Origin: Acidimicrobiaceae bacterium
GTDB taxonomy: Bacteria > Actinomycetota > Acidimicrobiia > Acidimicrobiales > Acidimicrobiaceae
Length of the DNA: 33,102 nt
Direction of reading: 5' to 3'
Assembly: GCA_013044365.1 (NCBI GenBank)
Contig: JABEUP010000128.1
Span: forward strand, 1 to 33,102
Shown here piece by piece: positions 8,068 to 19,719 of the stretch. Every line of letters starts with the position of its first letter. The first letter of the stretch is position 1. Position numbers and translations under genes: made by a program. Below the pieces are notes generated by a model that did not search any database, was not told the DNA's origin, and saw only the letters and a list, made by a program, of their open reading frames with translations.

Positions 8068-9294
8068 TCAAGACGAAAGGTTCATACTTGCTGATGTGAA
8101 GCTGGTCCCGCTGATCTTGTCGAAACCGGGCGGATAGTTTGACAACACATTCAGCTTCGGATTGCTGTAGGAGACGTCGGTTAGAGCCGAAATAGTGTGG
8201 CTGTGAAGCCATGCCTCTTTGGCACTCAGGCTGCTCGTAACCCCTGCACCCTTCAACAAAGCAATTGCTACATCTATGGCATAGGCCCCGCTCACATTTA
8301 TGGTGTCGGGCGCATGGCCTATCGCTGCCTTTTCTGCGCTTATATACGCCGACATTTTCGCAGCATCGCTCGATGGCACGTCCCCCGGCACCAGCGGCGT
8401 ACCCGGGATGGTGTAGAAGCTTGTCGGCTCATACGAGCTAATGCCTTTTAGGAAACCGTAGGAGGCATCGGCGCCAGTCACAACAAGCGGCATCTTAGGC
8501 TTGAGTTCGTTATATGCCTTGATGACCGCCGCTCTCTCTGCTCCGAGTGCAGCAACATAGATCATCGGCACGTTCGCGCTGATCAGCTTCTGCATCGCCA
8601 CCGTGTCATCGGTTGCCGTTGCCGAAATGAACTGGGTATCTAACTTTAAAGATCCCGCTGCCGCCTTGATGAAGCCCAGCTGAGACTCGCCCACGGCGTC
8701 ATCAGTTGCGATGATCCCAATCGTCGAGAAATGACTCGCTTTCGCTACCTGATCGACCACGTCATCTACAGTCGCGCCGGAAGGCGCAATCTGGAAGGCA
8801 TTCGACGAGTAGGGCGGGTTGAGAAGGTTGGTTCCTGCCAGTACCACGCTGTTACTCAACGTTGGTATAGCCGCCTTCAGGTTGGCAATCACGGAAACAG
8901 TCAGGACAACCGGTTGACTGGCGAACTTGGTGGCACACTGCTGAGCGCCGGACACGGTGCTTTGGGTATCGCATTGCTCCAGCTTGAGCGGGTGTCCCCC
9001 AATGCCTCCCGACTTGTTGAGTGCCGCTATCGCCGGCCCCATACCCTGGACCTGGCCGGTGCCAAAGAAAGCGTCGCTTCCCGTAAAGTCGCCTATGACG
9101 GGCAGAGTGATAGGCGAAGCGCTGCTGCTTGCCGTTGCCGAGGCAGCGGTTGTCGTGGAACTTGCACTACTTGCACTTCCTGAGCTACCGCAGGCCGCCG
9201 CAACCAGCGCCACCACGGATGCCGCTACCACAAATCGCAAACGCTGGTCACCGTGTCTGACAACAGACCGCCCCCCACGCGTATTTATTCTCAT
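8068..9294 (-). CDS. Branched-chain amino acid-type ABC transporter solute-binding lipoprotein
   Basis: Lipobox VALVAAACGSS; ITLPVIGDFTGSDAFFGTGQVQGMGPAIAALNKSGGIGGHPLKLEQCDTQ is typical of Peripla_BP_6 proteins. Confidence 0.93.
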   Translation of the reverse strand: MRINTRGGRSVVRHGDQRLRFVVAASVVALVAAACGSSGSASSASSTTTAASATASSSASPITLPVIGDFTGSDAFFGTGQVQGMGPAIAALNKSGGIGGHPLKLEQCDTQSTVSGAQQCATKFASQPVVLTVSVIANLKAAIPTLSNSVVLAGTNLLNPPYSSNAFQIAPSGATVDDVVDQVAKASHFSTIGIIATDDAVGESQLGFIKAAAGSLKLDTQFISATATDDTVAMQKLISANVPMIYVAALGAERAAVIKAYNELKPKMPLVVTGADASYGFLKGISSYEPTSFYTIPGTPLVPGDVPSSDAAKMSAYISAEKAAIGHAPDTINVSGAYAIDVAIALLKGAGVTSSLSAKEAWLHSHTISALTDVSYSNPKLNVLSNYPPGFDKISGTSFTSASMNLSS

Positions 9295-9313
9295 TGTATT
9301 ACCTCCTTATTTT

Positions 9314-9335
9314 GTGCTCATGATCTCAAGAGCAC
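9314..9335 (-). promoter_or_regulatory. Intercistronic stem-loop between livF and the SBP gene
   Basis: GTGCTC-N10-GAGCAC inverted repeat just upstream of the AAGGAGG SD of the SBP gene. Confidence 0.35.
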
Positions 9336-9359
9336 TGATTCATATGTCTTTCCACACAC

Positions 9360-10031
9360 TCAAACATTTGATTCCGGCGCCAAAATACGCCCCATTCGTA
9401 CCTCCACCCGACGATCTGTCAACCCCTCCAGCACCACCTCCGAATGCTCAGCAATGACAAGCGTCATCCCCCCGCGGATGTTCGAAAGCACTTCGACCAG
9501 CTGGTTCACCACCGAGATAGCGAGACCCAGCGATGGCTCATCCAATAAAAGCAGCCTGGGCTTACACATCAGCGCCCGCCCGATAGCCAGCATCTGTTGC
9601 TCCCCTCCTGACAGCTGCCCCCCCTTTACGCGTCGGCGCTGCTTCAACTGCGGGAAAACGGTGTAGACCGAATCGAGGCGGTCTTGGTGCTCTCGGTCGC
9701 GCCTGATCCGATGCCGGGACAGGAGCGTGATATCGAGATTTCCCTCTACCGTTAGATCTCTCATGATCTGACGCCCTTCCGGTACCAGGGATATGCCTTT
9801 CCCCACGCGCTCCGCCGCTTGGTACCGCTCTATCGACTCACCGGCGAAGTTGATCGTGCCTCCATTGGTTGGCAGCTCGCCAGCAATGACTTTCAACAAA
9901 GTTGACTTTCCAGCACCATTAGGACCCACGATACCCACCGCTTCGCCACCCCTTATATCGAGGTTGATACGGTGTAAAACCATCAGTTCGCGGTATCCGC
10001 CGCTCACGCCTTCGAGTAAGAGATTATCCAC
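9360..10031 (-). CDS. livF: Branched-chain-type ABC transporter ATP-binding protein
   Basis: GPNGAGKSTLLK Walker A, LSGGEQQMLAIGRAL signature, LLLLDEPSLGL Walker B. Confidence 0.95.
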   Translation of the reverse strand: MDNLLLEGVSGGYRELMVLHRINLDIRGGEAVGIVGPNGAGKSTLLKVIAGELPTNGGTINFAGESIERYQAAERVGKGISLVPEGRQIMRDLTVEGNLDITLLSRHRIRRDREHQDRLDSVYTVFPQLKQRRRVKGGQLSGGEQQMLAIGRALMCKPRLLLLDEPSLGLAISVVNQLVEVLSNIRGGMTLVIAEHSEVVLEGLTDRRVEVRMGRILAPESNV

Positions 10032-11910
10032 CCAGATGTCTCCCTGTCTCGAGCGGCGACCCCATCACTTGCCCCGTATGGTCCATATACTCGCGCAAAC
10101 CGTTTACTTCTCCGGTATAGGCAACCCGACCCAGTTCGAGCACATATCCGCAATCGGCAATATTGGCAACGAAGTCCAAATTGTGATCGACTATTACCAC
10201 GGACGTTCCCTTTGAGCGCAACGAATCAATTATCCTTTCAAGGCGGGATAATTCTTCAAGCGTCAAACCCGCACCCGGCTCATCCATGATGAGCAACCTC
10301 GGTTCCAAAGCGATAGCGCGTGCCACTTCGATGATTTTCCGCCTCCCGCCACCGATCTCTGACGTCTTACGTTGAGCGATATGCCCGAGCCCGGCTTCGG
10401 CCAGGGCCTCCCGGCATCGCTCAGTTAGGCCAATATCCGGCCGTCGATTGCGTCCGCCGAACAGCGCCAGGTTATAGACGGCTTCAGCACCAACCCAGAC
10501 GTTTTCTTCAACAGTTAGGTCCAGAGCTACCCGGGCAGTTTGAAATGTGCGGGCGATACCCACCCGAGCACGCTCAACTGGCTCGCCCGGCGTCAAACAT
10601 CTTCCTTCGAAATGCACCTCCCCGCCGGTTGGCGTCTCAACACCGGTGATTATGTTGAGAAGAGTACTCTTACCTGCACCATTAGCACCTACTATGGCTG
10701 TCACAACAGCCGGACGCGCCTCGATGCTGACACAGTCCAATGCCTGTATTCCGCCAAAGATCTTCGACACGTTCATTACTTCCAGACGGCCAGCAGACCC
10801 GGGTGGCTCGATATTCCCCGGATCTTCCCGAAGACGGGACGCGGACACCGACACCGCTGAATTCGCCGTGACATCCGAGCCGTGATCGGTTTTAAGCTCA
10901 ACAGGTTCCTGGTTGTCAACCGATCGATATCTTCGCCGGACCTTACTTGTCATGACGTCAACCGCCCCTACCACCCCGCCCTGGAAGTAGGCAACGACGA
11001 GGAAGAAAATCAGCCCGTATACGAACAGTTCAATGTCCCCGAGACCACTGGTAGCCGCAGACAGCCAGGTGAGCAGGCTGGCACCGATAACCGGGCCGAC
11101 GGGAGAGCCGCTGCCTCCCACTATTGCGAAACCAAGAAGCTGCACCGACTCGGTTAATCCTGCATCCTGAGGCACGATGACACCCTGCCAGCGGGCGAGA
11201 AGTACCCCGGAAAGGGCGGCGAGAATAGCGCTCGCCGTAAAAAGCACACGCCGGGCGCGGGTTACCTCAACGCCATGCACACTCGCAGCCAACGGGTCCT
11301 CCCGAAGAAGAGAAAACAAGCGGCCTCGCCAGCCGTGGACCAAACGATAGGTCAGTGGAATCACAGCCACTGTGATTACCACGATCGTCACATACCAGCC
11401 GAGGCCGGAATTAACGGTGAATAGTCCAAGCGGGAGCGTCCTGGTGGTGGTCAGACCAGAATCACCCTGCGTAACACCTGGGAATGCGGCAAGTACCCCA
11501 TCGATGGCTGCCGATGTACCGAGCATTGCCACGGCAAAATAGAAATTTGGCAGGCGGGCGAAAATTCCACCCGAGATCCAGGCCACCACAGCCGCTATAA
11601 CCAAACTTGCAAAGGCGGCTGGCACATATGGAATGCCGAACCGCGTGGTAGCCAGCACCGCCCCGTAGGCCGCCAAACCCAAGAAAGAGGCGCCTCCCAA
11701 ATTCACCATTCGCCCGAAGCGGATCAAGACGTTTACACCCAGTGCTGCCAGTCCCAGAATTCCGGCCAGGACCGCAGTGTTGAGGTTCCATGAAGGGATA
11801 CCAAAACCCGGCGAGAGAACAAGGACAACCACGGCGCAAAGCTTCGCCATGCTACTCCAGCTAAGCGAACGCAATCGCGCAGAGCCTGTTCGTGCCATGA
11901 TTGCGCTCAT
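10024..11910 (-). CDS. Fused LivM permease-LivG ATPase
   Basis: N-terminal LivM-like TM region (NLGGASFLGLAAYGAVLATTRFGIPYV) followed by ATPase GANGAGKSTLLNIITGVETPTGG...LLIMDEPGAGL. Confidence 0.95.
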   Translation of the reverse strand: MSAIMARTGSARLRSLSWSSMAKLCAVVVLVLSPGFGIPSWNLNTAVLAGILGLAALGVNVLIRFGRMVNLGGASFLGLAAYGAVLATTRFGIPYVPAAFASLVIAAVVAWISGGIFARLPNFYFAVAMLGTSAAIDGVLAAFPGVTQGDSGLTTTRTLPLGLFTVNSGLGWYVTIVVITVAVIPLTYRLVHGWRGRLFSLLREDPLAASVHGVEVTRARRVLFTASAILAALSGVLLARWQGVIVPQDAGLTESVQLLGFAIVGGSGSPVGPVIGASLLTWLSAATSGLGDIELFVYGLIFFLVVAYFQGGVVGAVDVMTSKVRRRYRSVDNQEPVELKTDHGSDVTANSAVSVSASRLREDPGNIEPPGSAGRLEVMNVSKIFGGIQALDCVSIEARPAVVTAIVGANGAGKSTLLNIITGVETPTGGEVHFEGRCLTPGEPVERARVGIARTFQTARVALDLTVEENVWVGAEAVYNLALFGGRNRRPDIGLTERCREALAEAGLGHIAQRKTSEIGGGRRKIIEVARAIALEPRLLIMDEPGAGLTLEELSRLERIIDSLRSKGTSVVIVDHNLDFVANIADCGYVLELGRVAYTGEVNGLREYMDHTGQVMGSPLETGRHLGG

Positions 11911-12779
11911 GCCCGAACGACTCCGCCAAAACGCACACGCCGGCCGAGTAGCGCAACCGCCACCACTATAAGTACCCCCAGCACCAGAGGTTCAGCAAGA
12001 AGTTGGTTTACGTAGCTCCCAATAAGTGACTCCGCCACTCCCACCAATAATCCGGCGAGGCAAGCACCAATGGGGCTTTTCATGGCTGCCAGTGCAGCCG
12101 CTACGTAGCCAAGAAGGGTGAGGCTAAGGCCGGCATTGTAAGTAACGATACTCAATGGAACAAGCAGGAGTGCAGCTAATCCACCCAAAAAACCTGCCGT
12201 GCCAAATGCAATCATTCGCATCATGGACACGTTTATACCAAGCAGCGAAGACATAGTCGGATTCTCGGCACAGGCCGATAACCCCTGTCCAAAGATTGTG
12301 CGGTGCAAAAACCACGATATCAATAACCCGACCAAAAGCAGGATACCAATGAGAACGAGCCCATCAAACGTCATGACAGCATTGCTCAGCCGCACTGTTC
12401 CATTGCCGACTAAAGACCGAAAGGAGAACTGGTTAGGTCCCACCGCGAAGTTTGCAATCCCCTCGGTGCACAGAGCCACCGCCACAACCAGGATTATCAG
12501 CCGCTCGGACGACCAACCTAGGCGTGGCCGTAGAATAACGCGCTCCAGACCCGCTCCAAACAGGACTGCGCACAGCAAACCGAGCGCTGCTGCCACCAAC
12601 ACTGGAACACCCATCCTGACAATCTCGGCAGTGATGAGTCCGGTCACCGTGAAAGCCTCACCCTGTGCAAGATTAACAACCCCCGAACTGCGATAACACA
12701 GTACGATACCAAGGCCGATGAGACCATATAATGCCCCATTGACCAACCCGGAGTAAAGGGTCTGTAATAGTAAAGACAT
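11907..12779 (-). CDS. livH: Branched-chain-type ABC transporter permease
   Basis: LLLQTLYSGLVNGALYGLIGLGIVLCYRSSGVVNLAQGEAFTVTG is typical LivH; ATGA overlap with livMG. Confidence 0.94.
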   Translation of the reverse strand: MSLLLQTLYSGLVNGALYGLIGLGIVLCYRSSGVVNLAQGEAFTVTGLITAEIVRMGVPVLVAAALGLLCAVLFGAGLERVILRPRLGWSSERLIILVVAVALCTEGIANFAVGPNQFSFRSLVGNGTVRLSNAVMTFDGLVLIGILLLVGLLISWFLHRTIFGQGLSACAENPTMSSLLGINVSMMRMIAFGTAGFLGGLAALLLVPLSIVTYNAGLSLTLLGYVAAALAAMKSPIGACLAGLLVGVAESLIGSYVNQLLAEPLVLGVLIVVAVALLGRRVRFGGVVRA

Positions 12780-12814: not shown

Positions 12815-13894
12815 TCATGGTGATGTGTCCTCTAGAAACCACTCTGTCGGAACTACATGCCCCAGACCCAACGCCTCGCACTTGGCCAGCACATAGGACC
12901 CTACGGCGGCGAACTGAAGGCCCATCCCGGTATTGTTCGCGAAAAGAGTAATCTGCTCCGGACTGGTACGCCCGGTTGCCCTTCCTAACAAAAGCGACCC
13001 AAGGTCTGCGATCTCGTCAAAAGTCTTATAGCCACGCTCTACCGGACCCATGATGTCTATCTGGTTATCGTGCGCCACCTGCTCACGCGAGAGCACTCTG
13101 ATAACTTCAGCGCGATCAAAGGTGGTGTCGTCGAGCTCCCGCCTCATCGCCGTGCCATCCGGACTTGTAATGCAGGTGACGTGGGTCCCAGGGGAAAGCC
13201 ATTCCCCGTCAAAACACGGGTCGAAGCCGGCGGTGGCACAGATCACCACCCCGCAGTCCTCTACCGCCCCTTTGGGGTCTCCCACAGCAACAATGCGCTT
13301 ACCAGTCCTGCTGCTCCAGGTGCGGGCAAACTCCTCCCGGTGCTCCCGGGTTGGACTGTAGACCCTCACTTCTTCGACAGTGGGCCTTACTCTAAGGAGA
13401 TAGGCAAGATGCGACTGCGCCTGCCAACCAGATCCGAAAAGACCGGCCAAAGGAACGTCGGGATTGGCCAATTCCCTAATACCAAGCGCAGTTGTGGCAC
13501 CTACCCGCATCTTTTGTATAAAGCTGTCGTGGATGACTGCCACTGGCTCTAAATGTTTCATCGAGTAAAGCGTGATAAGCCCGCAGTAGGTTCCGCCTGT
13601 GGCAACAGGCAGGAGGCGCCTACGTCGTTCGCCTCCTGCGAGGACTTCGACACCGGCCATGTCAGATGTTATGCGCAGGGCCCAGACACCGCTGGCCACA
13701 TTTCCGCCCTCTTGTGATTTGAAGCGGAATCCAAATCCCGGATGGTCGGCATCCTCCACGGGAAAGTAGGTATGATTCCGCGGTCGGTTGGCCGCCTGCC
13801 CCAGCGTATGCTCGCGATATGCCGTCTCCAGCACCGCCATGCACTCGTCAGGATCGAGAACCTGCTCCACATCACTATTACTCAATATCCGCAT
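12815..13894 (-). CDS. Ornithine cyclodeaminase/mu-crystallin family protein
   Basis: MRVGATTALGIRELANPDVPLAGLFGSGWQAQSHL (R-x-G-A...GSGxQA) and the overall OCD layout. Confidence 0.88.
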   Translation of the reverse strand: MRILSNSDVEQVLDPDECMAVLETAYREHTLGQAANRPRNHTYFPVEDADHPGFGFRFKSQEGGNVASGVWALRITSDMAGVEVLAGGERRRRLLPVATGGTYCGLITLYSMKHLEPVAVIHDSFIQKMRVGATTALGIRELANPDVPLAGLFGSGWQAQSHLAYLLRVRPTVEEVRVYSPTREHREEFARTWSSRTGKRIVAVGDPKGAVEDCGVVICATAGFDPCFDGEWLSPGTHVTCITSPDGTAMRRELDDTTFDRAEVIRVLSREQVAHDNQIDIMGPVERGYKTFDEIADLGSLLLGRATGRTSPEQITLFANNTGMGLQFAAVGSYVLAKCEALGLGHVVPTEWFLEDTSP

Positions 13895-13941: not shown

Positions 13942-15027
13942 CTAAAAACTCTTTTCCGCTGCGTTAATTCCACTTACAATGCCAGGCAACGGCGAAGTCA
14001 GAACCTCCGTGTCCTCGCCGCGAATGAGATAAGTATCTGCCAGCACCGCGGTTGAACCATCGGGCAACTCGAGTTCGAGTCGCAACGCGGCAACTGAGCC
14101 CTCGCCAACTGATGCCGCTGCCTCATGGATCGACCGGTAGCCAGCTTCGGTTTCTATATCTGTGTGTTGTATCAGATCCACCTTCCACCCGAGACCCGTA
14201 GACGCCAAGCAACCCTGCACTGCAGACGCCACCTGGGCTATCGTTACCCCGGGCCGGATTTCGGATGCGGCTGCCTCATAACCGGTGGCCAAAGCGCCCG
14301 CCCACTCGGTCTGAGCACCTCCAACAACACGTGCCGCAAGGGTCCAAAACCCGCGAAACTCTGATATCACTTCGACCGTGTCGGCATCCGGTCCGCAGTG
14401 GTGACAATAAACGCTTACGTCTTCCGCCCCGCCAAGACGAGCCACCAGTTCCGCCCGCCCGGCGCGCTCATGGTTGCTCAAGTCCTGACCCATTCCCTCA
14501 ATCACTGCCTGGGCGGTCAGACCTGAGCCCCTGGAGAGCAGTTCAAGTTCAGATTCCGATGGCTGCTGGCGCCGCTCGCGCACCACACTGCCAAGGTCTA
14601 AAATGGACCTAATGCCCGCTTGGGTCTCCAGCTCATCGACAAGCTGCGCCGGCCACCAAGACATTTCCACCAAACCTAGCTCGCTCGCTCCCTGTTCCTT
14701 TAAATACTGTCCAGCCAGCACGGCAAGATTCGGGCCGCTGCGCAAGTCACTGAGATTGGACGTCATCCGCATCCAGGGATGGACCCTCGGCGAGAGTTTC
14801 ATGAGCATCGCCGGACTGCCATTGGCGGGTACCGCGAGAACGCCCTCGTTCCAATAGATGCAAATATTGGATAAATAAGTGAGGTCTCCGGAGTGGAAAA
14901 CGTCCCCGTAGATGAGTGCCGCCGCTAAGCCGCGCTCGCGAAGGACATCTTGTAAAGCACCCACCCGACCTTCGAGTTCACCCGGCGGAATCTCGCTTGG
15001 GTCTAATACAACCAGGCCACGCTTCAT
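13942..15027 (-). CDS. M24 (pita-bread/creatinase-like) family protein, highly divergent
   Basis: Creatinase N-terminal-like region (ALIYGDVFHSGDLTYLSNICIYWNEGVLAVPANG) and M24-like C-terminus. Start MKRGLVVLD at 15027 avoids overlap with the upstream gene. Confidence 0.7.
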   Translation of the reverse strand: MKRGLVVLDPSEIPPGELEGRVGALQDVLRERGLAAALIYGDVFHSGDLTYLSNICIYWNEGVLAVPANGSPAMLMKLSPRVHPWMRMTSNLSDLRSGPNLAVLAGQYLKEQGASELGLVEMSWWPAQLVDELETQAGIRSILDLGSVVRERRQQPSESELELLSRGSGLTAQAVIEGMGQDLSNHERAGRAELVARLGGAEDVSVYCHHCGPDADTVEVISEFRGFWTLAARVVGGAQTEWAGALATGYEAAASEIRPGVTIAQVASAVQGCLASTGLGWKVDLIQHTDIETEAGYRSIHEAAASVGEGSVAALRLELELPDGSTAVLADTYLIRGEDTEVLTSPLPGIVSGINAAEKSF

Positions 15028-15049: not shown

Positions 15050-16174
15050 CTAAATCGGTGAGCTAAAGAGAATCCGCTCCACGCTGAGCAGCGGCTCGTA
15101 TCCGGTTTGCTTGACCACCACCGGATCACCGAGAACGTGGTATCCGGCAAGGGGGGTATAGGTATTGGGATGTATTATTATGACTGCGTTCTCTTCGAGC
15201 ACTGTCTCGTTATCTTCCAGCAGTGGAGGAAACTCATCCGGGTGAAGCCCATGTCCATGCCCGCGCACTCGGGTGTACTGACTAGTCGTATATTCTCCGT
15301 AGCCATGGGCGCGGAACACGTCATTCTCAGCCCGGGCAATATCACCGGCAGTCACCCCGGCTCGAACGACGGCTAGACCTGCTTCCACCGCCTCGTTAAA
15401 CAGATCGAACGACTTCCGCTGACCTTCGCTGGGCTCGCCCAGCACGGCGCTTCTGCAAATCTGGGCATAATAACCATCGAGCTGGGGAGTCAACTCGGTC
15501 CGTACCATGTCACCCGGTTGAAGTTCCCGGACTCCAGGCGGGGTCATCCCCATTACCTCATCCCCTCCTGAGGCCAACAGCATGAAATTGTCCTGGGCAC
15601 CCATGCGCTTGAGCTCCGCCTCGACCGCGGCTACTATCTCGAACTCGCGCACGCCTGGATGAAGAGCCGCCACAAAAGCCTTCCAGCCTGCGGAGCAAAC
15701 CACTCCGGCACGGCGAATCTGCTCCAACTCCCAGCCGCTCTTGACCAGTCGCACCTCATCCATAAGGCGCGTCGCTGATATGATGGGTGTCCCCTCTAGA
15801 GCACGCAATAACGGCTCCAGCAGGACCTTCGGCATAAGCTCGAGGTGAGCTATGCCAAGTGTGCCGGAACTCGCTAGGTCCTCCCTGATAACCGAGGAAA
15901 TGTCACCGACCTCCGGAAAACCAACCACCTTGATATCTTTCACCCGCCCGATTTCACGGGTTGCACTAGCGTCGGCGCTGTTGCCGACAAAAGCAGTGGG
16001 CTCACCCACTTTAGGCAGGTATGCAAAAGCAAAGGCACCACGAAATAGCGCTCCCGTAAGGTACCTGACGTTCTCCCGGCGCCAACCGGGTGCAAACATC
16101 AGAATTCCGTCAAGACCCGCCACGTCCATTGCGTGCCGTACTCGGCTAAGACGCCAATCCCGGTCCATCGTCAT
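15050..16174 (-). CDS. M24 family protein (creatinase/Xaa-Pro aminopeptidase fold)
   Basis: RLSRVRHAMDVAGLDGILMFAPGWRRENVRYLTGALFRG...LQPGDMVRTELTPQLDGYYAQICRS...GHGHGLHPDEFPP; TAATG junction with upstream gene. Confidence 0.87.
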   Translation of the reverse strand: MTMDRDWRLSRVRHAMDVAGLDGILMFAPGWRRENVRYLTGALFRGAFAFAYLPKVGEPTAFVGNSADASATREIGRVKDIKVVGFPEVGDISSVIREDLASSGTLGIAHLELMPKVLLEPLLRALEGTPIISATRLMDEVRLVKSGWELEQIRRAGVVCSAGWKAFVAALHPGVREFEIVAAVEAELKRMGAQDNFMLLASGGDEVMGMTPPGVRELQPGDMVRTELTPQLDGYYAQICRSAVLGEPSEGQRKSFDLFNEAVEAGLAVVRAGVTAGDIARAENDVFRAHGYGEYTTSQYTRVRGHGHGLHPDEFPPLLEDNETVLEENAVIIIHPNTYTPLAGYHVLGDPVVVKQTGYEPLLSVERILFSSPI

Positions 16175-16671
16175 TACTGTTCCTCCTCCGCAAGTCGGCC
16201 AGCCATCGGTATGAGCCCACCCGCACGCAGCATGTCCATCAAAAATGGTGGAATCGCCTCACCTTGAAGCGAGACATTCGAACGTTCGTTAGTGATTATT
16301 CCGCTTTCAAAGTCGACGGCTAAGATATCTCCATCATCAACCCCTGCGGTTATCCCCGGACACTGCAGCAGAGGGAGACCAATCTCATAGCAGTTTCGGT
16401 AAAACAGCCTGGCCGCACTGTCTACCACCAGACCACCGATGCCAGTGGCCTGTAATGCCTTCGGGGCCACGGCCCGACCCGATGACTGACCGAAATGCCG
16501 ACCTGCAACCAGGATATCTCCAGGCTGGACGTCCCGGGCAAAAGCCGGATTAAGGTTTTCCAGCACATGCTTACGCATGTCGTCCATGGAACCGATAGCC
16601 CGGTCCGAGCGCACCATTTGATCCGTGGGTATATTATCGCCGAACTTCCAGCAACGGCCGCGTGCTTTCAC
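16174..16671 (-). CDS. Aconitase-superfamily small (swivel) subunit, LeuD-like, divergent
   Basis: FGDNIPTDQMV...GDILVAGRHFGQSSGRAVAPKALQATGIGGLVVDSAARLFYRNCYEIGLPLL. Confidence 0.86.
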   Translation of the reverse strand: MKARGRCWKFGDNIPTDQMVRSDRAIGSMDDMRKHVLENLNPAFARDVQPGDILVAGRHFGQSSGRAVAPKALQATGIGGLVVDSAARLFYRNCYEIGLPLLQCPGITAGVDDGDILAVDFESGIITNERSNVSLQGEAIPPFLMDMLRAGGLIPMAGRLAEEEQ

Positions 16672-16682
16672 TGTTGCCTCCT

Positions 16683-17939
16683 TCAGGCCAAAAACTCACG
16701 TGGATCGGACAAAACGCCGCGGACGGCCGAGGCTGCCACGGTATACGCCGATGACAAATACATTTTTGCTTTTGGGCTCCCATTCCGGCCGGGAAAGTTT
16801 CGGGCATGAGTCGATACCATCGACTCAGTTTCGGCCATTGCTCCCATGTTTATCGCTTGGTTGGAACCCGTACTTGGTGGAAACCAGGTACAACCTGCCT
16901 GGAACATATCCACCACCAGGCCCTCATCGCAAGCTTGCTGGAAGACCTGCCGGCTTGAGGGAACCACGTTGAATTTCACACCGTTGGCGATGTGGCGGCC
17001 GCGCAGGATCTCTGCCGCTTGACGAATATCTTCGATACGTCCACCACCGTGGCCTCCGAGTTCCGCCCATTGCACTTCCCGGCCAGCGAAGACGCTGATA
17101 GGTCCAACATTGCCCAATGTCGGCGAAGCTGCCACCTGGGGCTCCAAATCGCTTATGTCATATGACCAGGTTGCCTGGAAATCGGAGTCGGAGTCGGAGT
17201 ACAAAAGGTCATAAGGGTTTGAGGTGAATTCCGACATAAACTGAACCGTTTTTTCATCCGGCTCGATAAATCCGCATTTAGCTCCTACATCAACCGTGAT
17301 GAGGGGAAAGAGCCACCTGTCCCACATATCTAGTTCTTTTATATACTTGCCGCCAAAATGCAGCGCCTTGTACACCGCCCCGCCCTCACCAATCTGGGCA
17401 GTGAGCCAAAGCGCCGAGTCACGCGGTGTTACCCCAGGCTTGTGGTGGCCCGACAGCTCAATCCGGATGGTTTCCGGGACCCTAAACCAGGCCTTGCCAA
17501 ACGGCATCACCATCCCGGCATGGGAATTGTTGCCAAGACCTGCAGCGAAGGCTCCGACCGCTCCATGCACCGGGGTATGGCTGTCCGACCCAACGATAAC
17601 TGCTCCGGGCCTGATAAAACCGTTTCGGAGACCGGCATGGTGGATATTTCCACTGCCGCAGTCAAAGAGGTGCACGCCATGGCGACGCGCGAAGGCGCGC
17701 GTCTCTTCCAAAACCCGGGCTTGGGACTCCGTAGGCGGAGAAAAATGGTGATCAAATACAATCACCACACGCTCAGGATACTTCATCGGTCGATGGACCT
17801 CGTTTTCGAATACCCTAGAGGTGATATAGCCGCTCAGATCATGAAGCAACAGGCAGTCCACGTTGGCAACGACGATATCTCCAGGCTCTACTTTCTGCCG
17901 CCCGCTGGCCTTGGCCAGAATCTTTTCAACCAGGTTCAT
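16683..17939 (-). CDS. Aconitase-superfamily large subunit, LeuC-like, Fe-S ligand motifs degenerate
   Basis: VIVGSDSHTPVHGAVGAFAAGLGNNSHAGM retained; cluster motifs read AELGGHGGGRIED and MFQAGCTWFPPSTGS. Confidence 0.88.
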   Translation of the reverse strand: MNLVEKILAKASGRQKVEPGDIVVANVDCLLLHDLSGYITSRVFENEVHRPMKYPERVVIVFDHHFSPPTESQARVLEETRAFARRHGVHLFDCGSGNIHHAGLRNGFIRPGAVIVGSDSHTPVHGAVGAFAAGLGNNSHAGMVMPFGKAWFRVPETIRIELSGHHKPGVTPRDSALWLTAQIGEGGAVYKALHFGGKYIKELDMWDRWLFPLITVDVGAKCGFIEPDEKTVQFMSEFTSNPYDLLYSDSDSDFQATWSYDISDLEPQVAASPTLGNVGPISVFAGREVQWAELGGHGGGRIEDIRQAAEILRGRHIANGVKFNVVPSSRQVFQQACDEGLVVDMFQAGCTWFPPSTGSNQAINMGAMAETESMVSTHARNFPGRNGSPKAKMYLSSAYTVAASAVRGVLSDPREFLA

Positions 17940-19225
17940 TAAGCAATGCTCCCTTCAGGCAAGGCGATGAAATCACGCGGATCAGCTATTACACCTCTTA
18001 CTGCTGTCGCGGCTGCCACGACGGGGCTGGCAAGATAGATTTCCGAGTCATAGCTTCCCATCCGGCCCCGAAAGTTTCTGTTAGCCGTGGAGAGGGTGAC
18101 CTCACCGTCGGCCATAACTCCACCGTCGCCAGCGCAAGCGCCGCAACCAGGATTTGTCACCAGCGCACCGCTATCAAGTAGGACTGACATCACTCCAGAG
18201 TCGATTGCACGCCGGAGGACTTGCTTTGACGCCGGAGTAACTATAAGACGGACTCCAGGCGCAACGTGGCGACCACGGAGAATGGAAGCTGCTTCGACGA
18301 GATCCTCATACTTGGCATTTGTGCACGACCCGATAAAGACCTGATTAACTGGGGTTCCGGCAACATCTTCAATTGATTTGACGTTGTCAACCGTGTCAGG
18401 ACACGCGACCTGGGGAACCAAGGTCTCTCCGTCGATGTGGACTTCCCGGACATAGCGTGCATCCGAATCAGGAAATATTTCTTCGTATGCGTCACGGGCG
18501 ACGCCACAACGTTCAAGGTATTCTCTGGTCACCTCGTCGGGAGGGACATAGGCGAACTTTGCTCCCACTTCCATTGCCAGGTTGCAAAGCGTCATCCGCT
18601 CCGAGACCGACAAGCCCTCGACATAGCTGCCATGGAACTCAACCGAACAATATGTCGCGCCATCCGCGGTCAGCTCTCCAATCAATTTCAACATAACATC
18701 CTTGGCATAGACTCCATGAGACAGGGGCCCTTCAATCACGACTTTGATCGACTCAGGGACCATCATCCATAGATATCCGCAAACCCAGGTAGCTGTCACC
18801 TCGCTGAAGCCGACGCCGGTGCCGGCAACACCGAGAGCACCGTAAATCGTGGAGTGGGAGTCGGTCCCGATGAGCAACATTCCCGGTCGAACATGACCTT
18901 CCTCAATCAGCACTACATGGGCGATGCCGGCATCCACGTCATAGAACTTTTTAATTCCATGCGAGGCTGCAAACTCGCGGCACAGCTTTTGGTCTCCTGC
19001 AGTCTTTGCGCTGTATGCGGGCGAATTGTGATCCATGACCATTGCGATGCGATCCGGATCGAAAAGCTTGTCTGTACCCAACTTCTCAAGGGTCCGGATG
19101 CAGCGCCAGCTAGCCGCATGACTCATTATCAGGTTTGGATAGGCATCAACTATCTGACCGGCCTGGGTCACACCCTCCCCCGCAGCACGCGCCAACAACT
19201 TCTCGGCAAAGGTCGAACCCATCAC
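17939..19225 (-). CDS. Aconitase-superfamily large subunit (3-isopropylmalate dehydratase/homoaconitase-like), canonical
   Basis: LLIGTDSHSTIYGALGVAGTGVGFSEV, QVFIGSCTNAKYEDL and LVTNPGCGACAG contain the three Fe-S ligand Cys. Confidence 0.94.
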   Translation of the reverse strand: MMGSTFAEKLLARAAGEGVTQAGQIVDAYPNLIMSHAASWRCIRTLEKLGTDKLFDPDRIAMVMDHNSPAYSAKTAGDQKLCREFAASHGIKKFYDVDAGIAHVVLIEEGHVRPGMLLIGTDSHSTIYGALGVAGTGVGFSEVTATWVCGYLWMMVPESIKVVIEGPLSHGVYAKDVMLKLIGELTADGATYCSVEFHGSYVEGLSVSERMTLCNLAMEVGAKFAYVPPDEVTREYLERCGVARDAYEEIFPDSDARYVREVHIDGETLVPQVACPDTVDNVKSIEDVAGTPVNQVFIGSCTNAKYEDLVEAASILRGRHVAPGVRLIVTPASKQVLRRAIDSGVMSVLLDSGALVTNPGCGACAGDGGVMADGEVTLSTANRNFRGRMGSYDSEIYLASPVVAAATAVRGVIADPRDFIALPEGSIA

Positions 19226-19719
19226 GCCACACCTCCATCTGAAAGCTTCTGGGAGACGTAAGGGATCAGACCTCCAGCTCGAATAATTTCGATAAGCGAC
19301 TCCGGATAAGCCGGAAACGGGTAGGTACTATCCCCAACTACCACAACCGCGTTTACGAGATCGACGAAAACCTCTACGCCGTCGGCGGCTGCATCGGATG
19401 CATCGGCCTGCGTGATAGCGAGGAGCCCGGTATTTATAGCATTTCGGAAAAACGTCCTGGCGAAGGACTTGGCGACTACCGCTACCACGCCGGCCCCAAC
19501 TAAGCCCGATGCCGCCTGCTCACGGGCGCTGCCACAGCCGAAGTTGAATCCGGCAACAATTACCGGGCTGTTCCGCACGCGTGCCTGAACCTCGGGGCCA
19601 AGCGGTTCGAAGACGTGCTCGGCCAGTTCGACAGGATCAATACTGACCAAATACCTCCCGGGCATAATGACGTCTGTATTTACACCGTCACCAAATTTAG
19701 TGCAGATACCACCAATCAA
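19222..19719 (-). CDS. Aconitase-superfamily small subunit (LeuD-like), canonical
   Basis: KFGDGVNTDVIMPGRYL...VIVAGFNFGCGSAREQAASGLVGAGVVAVVAKSFARTFFRNAINTGLLAI. TTG start with GGGGGT upstream. Confidence 0.92.
   Translation of the reverse strand: MIGGICTKFGDGVNTDVIMPGRYLVSIDPVELAEHVFEPLGPEVQARVRNSPVIVAGFNFGCGSAREQAASGLVGAGVVAVVAKSFARTFFRNAINTGLLAITQADASDAAADGVEVFVDLVNAVVVVGDSTYPFPAYPESLIEIIRAGGLIPYVSQKLSDGGVA

Follow-up and report, generated by a model that had tools for sequence, protein, structure and literature searches.

An aconitase-type heterodimer without the cysteine ligands of the iron-sulfur cluster, conserved in a rare cross-phylum operon

The window analyzed here, a 33,102-nucleotide stretch of an Acidimicrobiaceae genome, carries an operon encoding two aconitase-type pairs, the canonical pair A (LARGEA and smallA) and a second pair B (LARGEB and smallB), and it is probable, judging from sequence, that B is a functional IPMI/homoaconitase-branch heterodimer in which the [4Fe-4S] cluster is gone but the substrate and acid-base site is still in place. 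As described in the literature, enzymes of the aconitase superfamily depend on an Fe-S cluster ligated by three cysteines (PMC8184944), and B looks like a textbook iron-sulfur enzyme remodeled to function with no such cluster. A ligand-free branch with the base, acid dyads, and carboxylate clamp in place would show what the scaffold is capable of without a cluster, as well as the conversion of an Fe-S enzyme into an oxygen-insensitive one. Automated annotation as '3-isopropylmalate dehydratase' or 'aconitase family' hides the B proteins, and their operon, found in soil actinomycetes, Alicyclobacillus, and gut anaerobes, points to an uncharacterized pathway of catabolism. No matching report of the B gene cluster or of cluster-less aconitases was found in the open-access literature, an earlier description being possible, and the B subfamily is new with respect to the open-access literature and annotation libraries searched.

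The operon lies on the minus strand and is tightly packed, with gene overlaps of 1-4 bases or gaps of 11 bases from smallA through M24a. It begins with smallA (19222..19719), a canonical small subunit with the loop NFGCGSAREQA, and LARGEA (17939..19225), a canonical large subunit with GSCTN and NPGCGAC. These are followed by LARGEB (16683..17939), a large subunit of 418 aa without cluster ligands, and smallB (16174..16671), a variant small (swivel) subunit of 165 aa with a GTG start, which lies directly downstream of LARGEB after an 11 bp gap and 3 kb from its canonical paralog smallA. Next come M24a (15050..16174), of the creatinase/prolidase fold, its diverged paralog M24b (13942..15027; the start, an ATG at 15027, is set from ortholog alignment), OCD (12815..13894), a protein of the ornithine cyclodeaminase/mu-crystallin (ketimine reductase) family, and a Liv-type (branched-chain-amino-acid-type) ABC transporter (8068..12779) with permeases, ATPases, and a substrate-binding protein, the last called by Pfam and the permeases and ATPases read from the sequence. 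Further aconitase-type proteins, among them a long aconitase and a LeuC-like protein, are encoded on other contigs of the host, so neither leucine synthesis nor the TCA cycle would have to draw on this operon for such an enzyme.

LARGEB differs from canonical large subunits at the positions where the cluster is held. Residues were mapped through HMMER alignments to MJ0499 (4kp1) and mitochondrial aconitase (1aco), and counts for large subunits come from an alignment of 90 sequences, 28 of them B and 62 other. The roles of Ser642, the cluster cysteines, and the cluster itself follow a published account (PMC8184944), and those of the other residues are the ones familiar from aconitase. With aconitase positions numbered as in the mitochondrial enzyme and LARGEB residues by their own count, the motif GGHGGGR (residues 295-301; 17037..17057, minus strand) replaces GSCTNxx and places His297 at the position of Cys358, TGSNQ (residues 357-361; 16857..16871, minus strand) replaces CxxC and places Thr357 and Asn360 at the positions of Cys421 and Cys424, and within ARNFPGR (residues 379-385; 16785..16805, minus strand) Asn446 has become Ala, with Arg447 and Arg452 kept. 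The same holds across the family: Cys358 is replaced by His and Cys424 by Asn in 28/28 B-type large subunits, Cys421 by Thr, Ser, or Ala, the cluster-contacting Asn258 by Leu or Met, Asn446 by Ala or Ser, and Glu262 by Asp (28/28). All three cluster cysteines are present in 62/62 of the other large subunits, both types of LARGEA included. B, for its part, shows no variation at Asp100, His101, His147, Asp165, Ser166, His167, Arg447, or Arg452 in any aligned sequence that covers the position. The result is a clean split, in which the residues predicted to touch the cluster are lost and those predicted to handle protons and carboxylates stay.

The original prediction had described smallB as directly next to a Cys-less large subunit. 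The two genes do adjoin and the ligand cysteines are indeed gone, but the protein is not devoid of cysteine, as C94 and C222 are present and invariant in 28/28 B-type large subunits. These residues bear on a different reading, in which the cofactor has been relocated, with His297 and C94 and/or C222 (possibly H100 or H121/D119) binding a mononuclear metal or an atypical cluster, so that B would still be a Lewis-acid hydro-lyase. Cys is not among the commonest residues at either site in the other 62 large subunits, C94 precedes the H147 site by 6 residues, C222 follows the E262 site by 5, and His297 and Asn360 are invariant as well. Aconitase X (AcnX), the most divergent branch of the superfamily, also binds an Fe-S cluster through three cysteines that are differently placed (PMC8184944). 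Relocation would, however, have to be reconciled with the loss of all three standard ligands and of both cluster-contacting asparagines, with just two conserved nonstandard cysteines known, and we regard it as rather unlikely, preferring the loss of the cluster with retention of the remainder of the site.

In smallB, the corresponding change concerns the swivel loop HFGQSSGRAVA (residues 59-69; 16465..16497, minus strand), in which S64 and R66 are the equivalents of Ser642 and Arg644 of mitochondrial aconitase. The contrast first drawn between this loop and the NFGCGSAREQA of smallA is borne out, and in an alignment of 92 small subunits (32 B and 60 other) the loop is identical in 32/32 B-type sequences, the Ser642 and Arg644 equivalents thus being retained in all of them. 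The loop had been characterized as having lost Cys and Glu and kept Arg; the replacement of Glu645 by Ala67 and the retention of Arg644 are correct, but the emphasis on Cys was misplaced, since that position (FG-C-G) is no cluster ligand and is naturally variable, the 60 other small subunits having C, L, S, or I there. The informative changes are the loop-start Asn to His59, Gly641 to Ser63, Ser643 to Gly65, and Glu645 to Ala67, each found in 32/32. In the gut/anaerobe version of the operon, smallB is duplicated in tandem (L054, L055, L062, L063, and L064, and also L057), both copies being complete, with an intact HFGQSSGRAVA, beside a single LARGEB.

The two changes go together. When 84,980 species genomes were scanned with LARGEB, 27 orthologous loci were found at 60-79% identity, and the co-variation proposed between the loop and the large subunit is seen in 27/27 of these as well as in the window, a QSSGR small subunit being paired each time with a large subunit that lacks the cluster ligands. 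The change in parallel is confined to the B pair, as foreseen, with the large subunits of A pairs keeping all three cysteines. A QSSGR small subunit beside a Cys-containing large subunit, the counterexample named in advance, was not seen in the genomes sampled, where rare exceptions are possible. A degenerate DNA pattern for HFGQSSGR, which is independent of the large subunit and tolerates Thr in place of Ser, matched in 27/27 ortholog genomes, once per genome or twice in those with a duplicated smallB, and the controls gave one match in total. The lone match in 198 further genomes of the Streptomycetales, the order of the Streptomyces that harbors locus L065, lay in a nonhomologous frame and was rejected. 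Protein searches with smallB in 807 further genomes from four groups (300 + 299 + 59 + 149) returned operon copies only, including one extra operon with the same gene order in a relative of Alicyclobacillus (L095). Pairwise identities of LARGEB and smallB are correlated (r = 0.91 over 351 pairs, a value that includes shared ancestry). LARGEB forms a single clade (support 100/100, with a stem of 1.39 changes per site), as does smallB (support 100), and one fully supported clade for each subunit type indicates a single old, co-inherited heterodimer. Constant pairing and this clade structure support the idea of a co-inherited second heterodimer, and the 'new chemistry' that was suggested for it is plausible in the sense that the Lewis-acid cluster appears to be lost and the general base and carboxylate site kept.

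NCBIfam assigns both large subunits to the aconitase/3-isopropylmalate dehydratase family and both small subunits to LeuD/DmdB, with no equivalog cutoff reached. The score of 387.6 bits against NF001614 exceeds its cutoff of 385, which places B in the IPMI/homoaconitase (HACN) branch, and smallB scores 130.5 bits against TIGR02087 (LeuD/DmdB; cutoff, 108.95). The AlphaFold model of LARGEB (pLDDT 91) superimposes on 4kp1 (MJ0499) with a TM score of 0.92 and is least confident at residues 362-364, which lie in the CxxC-replacing loop, and that of smallB (pLDDT 95) superimposes on the IPM isomerase small subunit (3vba) with a TM score of 0.95. Compared with IPM/citramalate isomerase and homoaconitase (HACN/LeuCD type), B has the same fold, subunit split, and equivalents of Ser642/Arg644, D100/H101, H147, D165/S166/H167, and R447/R452, and thus the catalytic serine and carboxylate arginines of the HACN branch, but it lacks the branch's three [4Fe-4S] cysteines along with N258 and N446, has Asp for E262, and reads QSSGRA for CGSSRE in the loop. 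Scores fall below the LeuCD equivalog cutoffs (LEU2, 321 bits against 610.65; leud, 128.5 against 245.85), a separate LeuC-type protein of the host is encoded on another contig, and B does not lie in a leucine operon, no leuA or leuB having been recognized at B loci. B and aconitase X (cis-3-hydroxyproline/phosphomevalonate dehydratase) are both members of the aconitase superfamily with an altered cofactor site (PMC8184944). The two are distant, however, as LARGEB belongs to the IPMI/homoaconitase family and compares with AcnX (7cnp/7d2r) at a TM score of about 0.57 and 12% identity; the AcnX family was absent from Pfam and NCBIfam scans of the window proteins. Dimethylmaleate hydratase DmdAB of nicotinate fermentation shares the LeuD/DmdB-type family (TIGR02087) with smallB. 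DmdAB is an Fe-S enzyme that acts on cis-1,2-dicarboxylates in N-heterocycle catabolism, and no nicotinate-fermentation genes were recognized at B loci. A viral fold search gave no match.

The B operon is rare and patchy in its distribution, with orthologs in at least six phyla. The hosts are Acidimicrobiales, Streptomyces, Saccharopolyspora, Amycolatopsis, Alicyclobacillus, Halalkalibacter, Clostridia, Lachnospiraceae, Peptococcaceae, Flexilinea, Spirochaetales/Treponema, Burkholderiales, Sterolibacterium, and deltaproteobacterial genomes. A possible 28th ortholog, L075, was rejected at 33% identity over 123 residues. Among 198 genomes of the same order and 397 of the same phylum, only homologs of at most 39% identity were found besides the window, and those that were read are canonical. 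Plasmid relatives in Peribacillus, Natronorubrum, Burkholderia, Skermanella, Deinococcus, and Variovorax gave good scores, but all retain the cysteines; the Skermanella mucosa plasmid (L025, 7670-11320) encodes two large and two small aconitase-type subunits, and both large ones keep them. Divergence of a different kind is seen at L018 (1002-3251), a canonical-type pair with the loop FGIGSARPVAS in which Asn258 is replaced and the cysteines are retained. A Treponema MAG (L062, 8001-9254) has a LARGEB frame that stops ~40 residues early while the DNA match continues, which reflects either a frameshift or a sequencing error. At L095 (8125-9930; G1396, of the Alicyclobacillus order), LARGEB is split over two frames and the smallB loop reads HFGQPSGRAVA, indicating ongoing decay or an assembly error.

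The broken frame and HFGQPSGR loop of this related operon are what could be cited for B being a pseudogene or a degenerate duplicate of the canonical pair, and for the family as a whole that reading is refuted by the 27 orthologous loci, intact or nearly so, in different phyla, by a conserved operon, and by purifying selection, so that we give it next to no credence. Close pairs give dN/dS values of 0.04-0.20 (LARGEB) and 0.06-0.18 (smallB, with one saturated pair), similar to the 0.03-0.12 of LARGEA, and identity levels of LARGEB and smallB are close to those of the canonical pair. The motifs GGHGGGR, GSNQAINMGAM, and RNFPGRNGS of LARGEB and HFGQSSGRA of smallB are essentially invariant among orthologs, and with such residues at the loop and ligand sites and this range of dN/dS, chance or decay is ruled out. 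A recent duplication of the adjacent canonical pair was also rejected, as A and B are 34% identical and fall in separate clades. With aconitase A as the root, the tree places LARGEB in the midst of Cys-bearing IPMI-type enzymes, in a poorly resolved inner branching order, and this makes loss of the ligands the simpler reading and leaves an ancestral absence of the cluster unsupported.

Two operon layouts were found among B loci. Type 1, in aerobes and others, reads M24a-M24b-OCD-smallA-LARGEA-LARGEB-smallB, and the window has the same blocks in another order. Type 2, in gut and other anaerobes, reads TRAP transporter, PreA-like protein, LARGEA', smallA', M24a', M24b', LARGEB, smallB, usually with a second smallB and often with an AbrB-type membrane protein. 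No M24 genes were recognized in two deltaproteobacterial type 1 loci, and in a deltaproteobacterial MAG of this kind a UbiD-family decarboxylase follows the operon (L060, 13548-15113). OCD was not recognized in type 2 loci, and it is just there that the PreA-like protein, a dihydroorotate dehydrogenase fold (flavin) with a 4Fe-4S domain, precedes the operon (L054, 2840-4015; L055, 2935-4110; L057, 649-1875; L062, 1078-2262; L063, 2881-4077; L064, 1044-2228; partial in L056). A redox-enzyme swap between aerobes and anaerobes is possible. The canonical large subunits of the two layouts, LARGEA (type 1) and LARGEA' (type 2), belong to separate, unrelated clades, and the constant part of the operon is LARGEB and smallB, mostly with the M24 pair.

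The A and B pairs are close together at every locus with enough flanking sequence, and cluster loss would normally mark a dead aconitase, so B might instead be a noncatalytic partner or regulator of pair A, a pseudo-heterodimer in an A2B2-type assembly. Such a role would not account for the invariance of the general base Ser, the substrate arginines, and the acid dyads of B or for B-specific loops that are near-invariant across phyla, and a constant B beside an A drawn from two unrelated clades fits a pathway neighbor better than an obligate assembly; we consider this explanation improbable. Since A comes from two unrelated clades, OCD was not recognized in type 2, and B is constant, B is probably a self-standing enzyme.

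As to what this enzyme may do, the presence of Arg380, Arg385, and Arg66 suggests that the substrate is probably a 1,2-dicarboxylate, which would be of the malate/maleate type and bind as in aconitase. Ser64 of smallB would take the alpha proton, and general acid catalysis by His64/His100/His121, and perhaps by His297 at the cluster-ligand position, would complete the reaction without a Lewis-acid metal, the leaving group being released with the help of the His dyads and possibly of His297. Because a Lewis acid would be missing, an amine or ammonia leaving group or a pure proton-shift isomerization is favored over the usual loss of hydroxide. Aspartase offers a precedent for a serine base acting without metal on an ammonia-type leaving group. 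The neighborhood of C-N/imine enzymes (the M24 pair and the OCD-like or PreA-like protein) and of carboxylate or aromatic-acid transporters points to a nitrogen-containing di- or tricarboxylic acid, in whose catabolism B would perform a pathway-specific step and the canonical pair A the more generic hydratase step, hydrating or dehydrating the resulting alkene dicarboxylate. A metal-free elimination or isomerization in the catabolism of a nitrogen-containing dicarboxylate is accordingly the candidate reaction favored here, and dipicolinate, isonicotinate/citrazinate, and hydantoin-like rings have been considered as candidate substrates. More tentatively, the whole may be a cluster-free subfamily that uses a serine base and an arginine clamp for C-N elimination from, or a proton shift in, a nitrogen-containing 1,2-dicarboxylate, and that is the signature of an undescribed, horizontally spread, cross-phylum catabolic pathway.

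The transporters beside the operon vary (TRAP, TctC, TAXI-TRAP, MFS group, and Liv), and the MFS member in Alicyclobacillus has its best scores against aromatic-acid/H+ symporters. In Alicyclobacillus suci (L048, 4752-10125), the operon is followed directly by hydantoinase/oxoprolinase A and B and MmgE/PrpD, the latter being found upstream of the operon in L049 (two loci with MmgE/PrpD in all), and single loci also carry class III aminotransferases and an aldehyde dehydrogenase.

The M24 pair is a second enzyme of the operon without its usual metal site. In M24a, four of the five peptidase metal ligands are replaced, and the residues now at the five positions (E, Q, H, H, G) are conserved, whereas M24b has no recognizable metal ligands and is best conserved in its N-terminal domain. 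In the creatinase fold, the N-terminal domain reaches into the active site of the partner, and this, together with the N-terminal conservation of M24b, makes an M24a/M24b heterodimer likely and suggests a metal-free, creatinase-like one. Like creatinase and ectoine hydrolase, M24a has the M24 fold without the peptidase metal ligands, but its scores against both families are low (52 bits against DoeA, with a cutoff of 613, and 59 bits against creatinase 1chm), and its E/Q/H/H pattern is its own.
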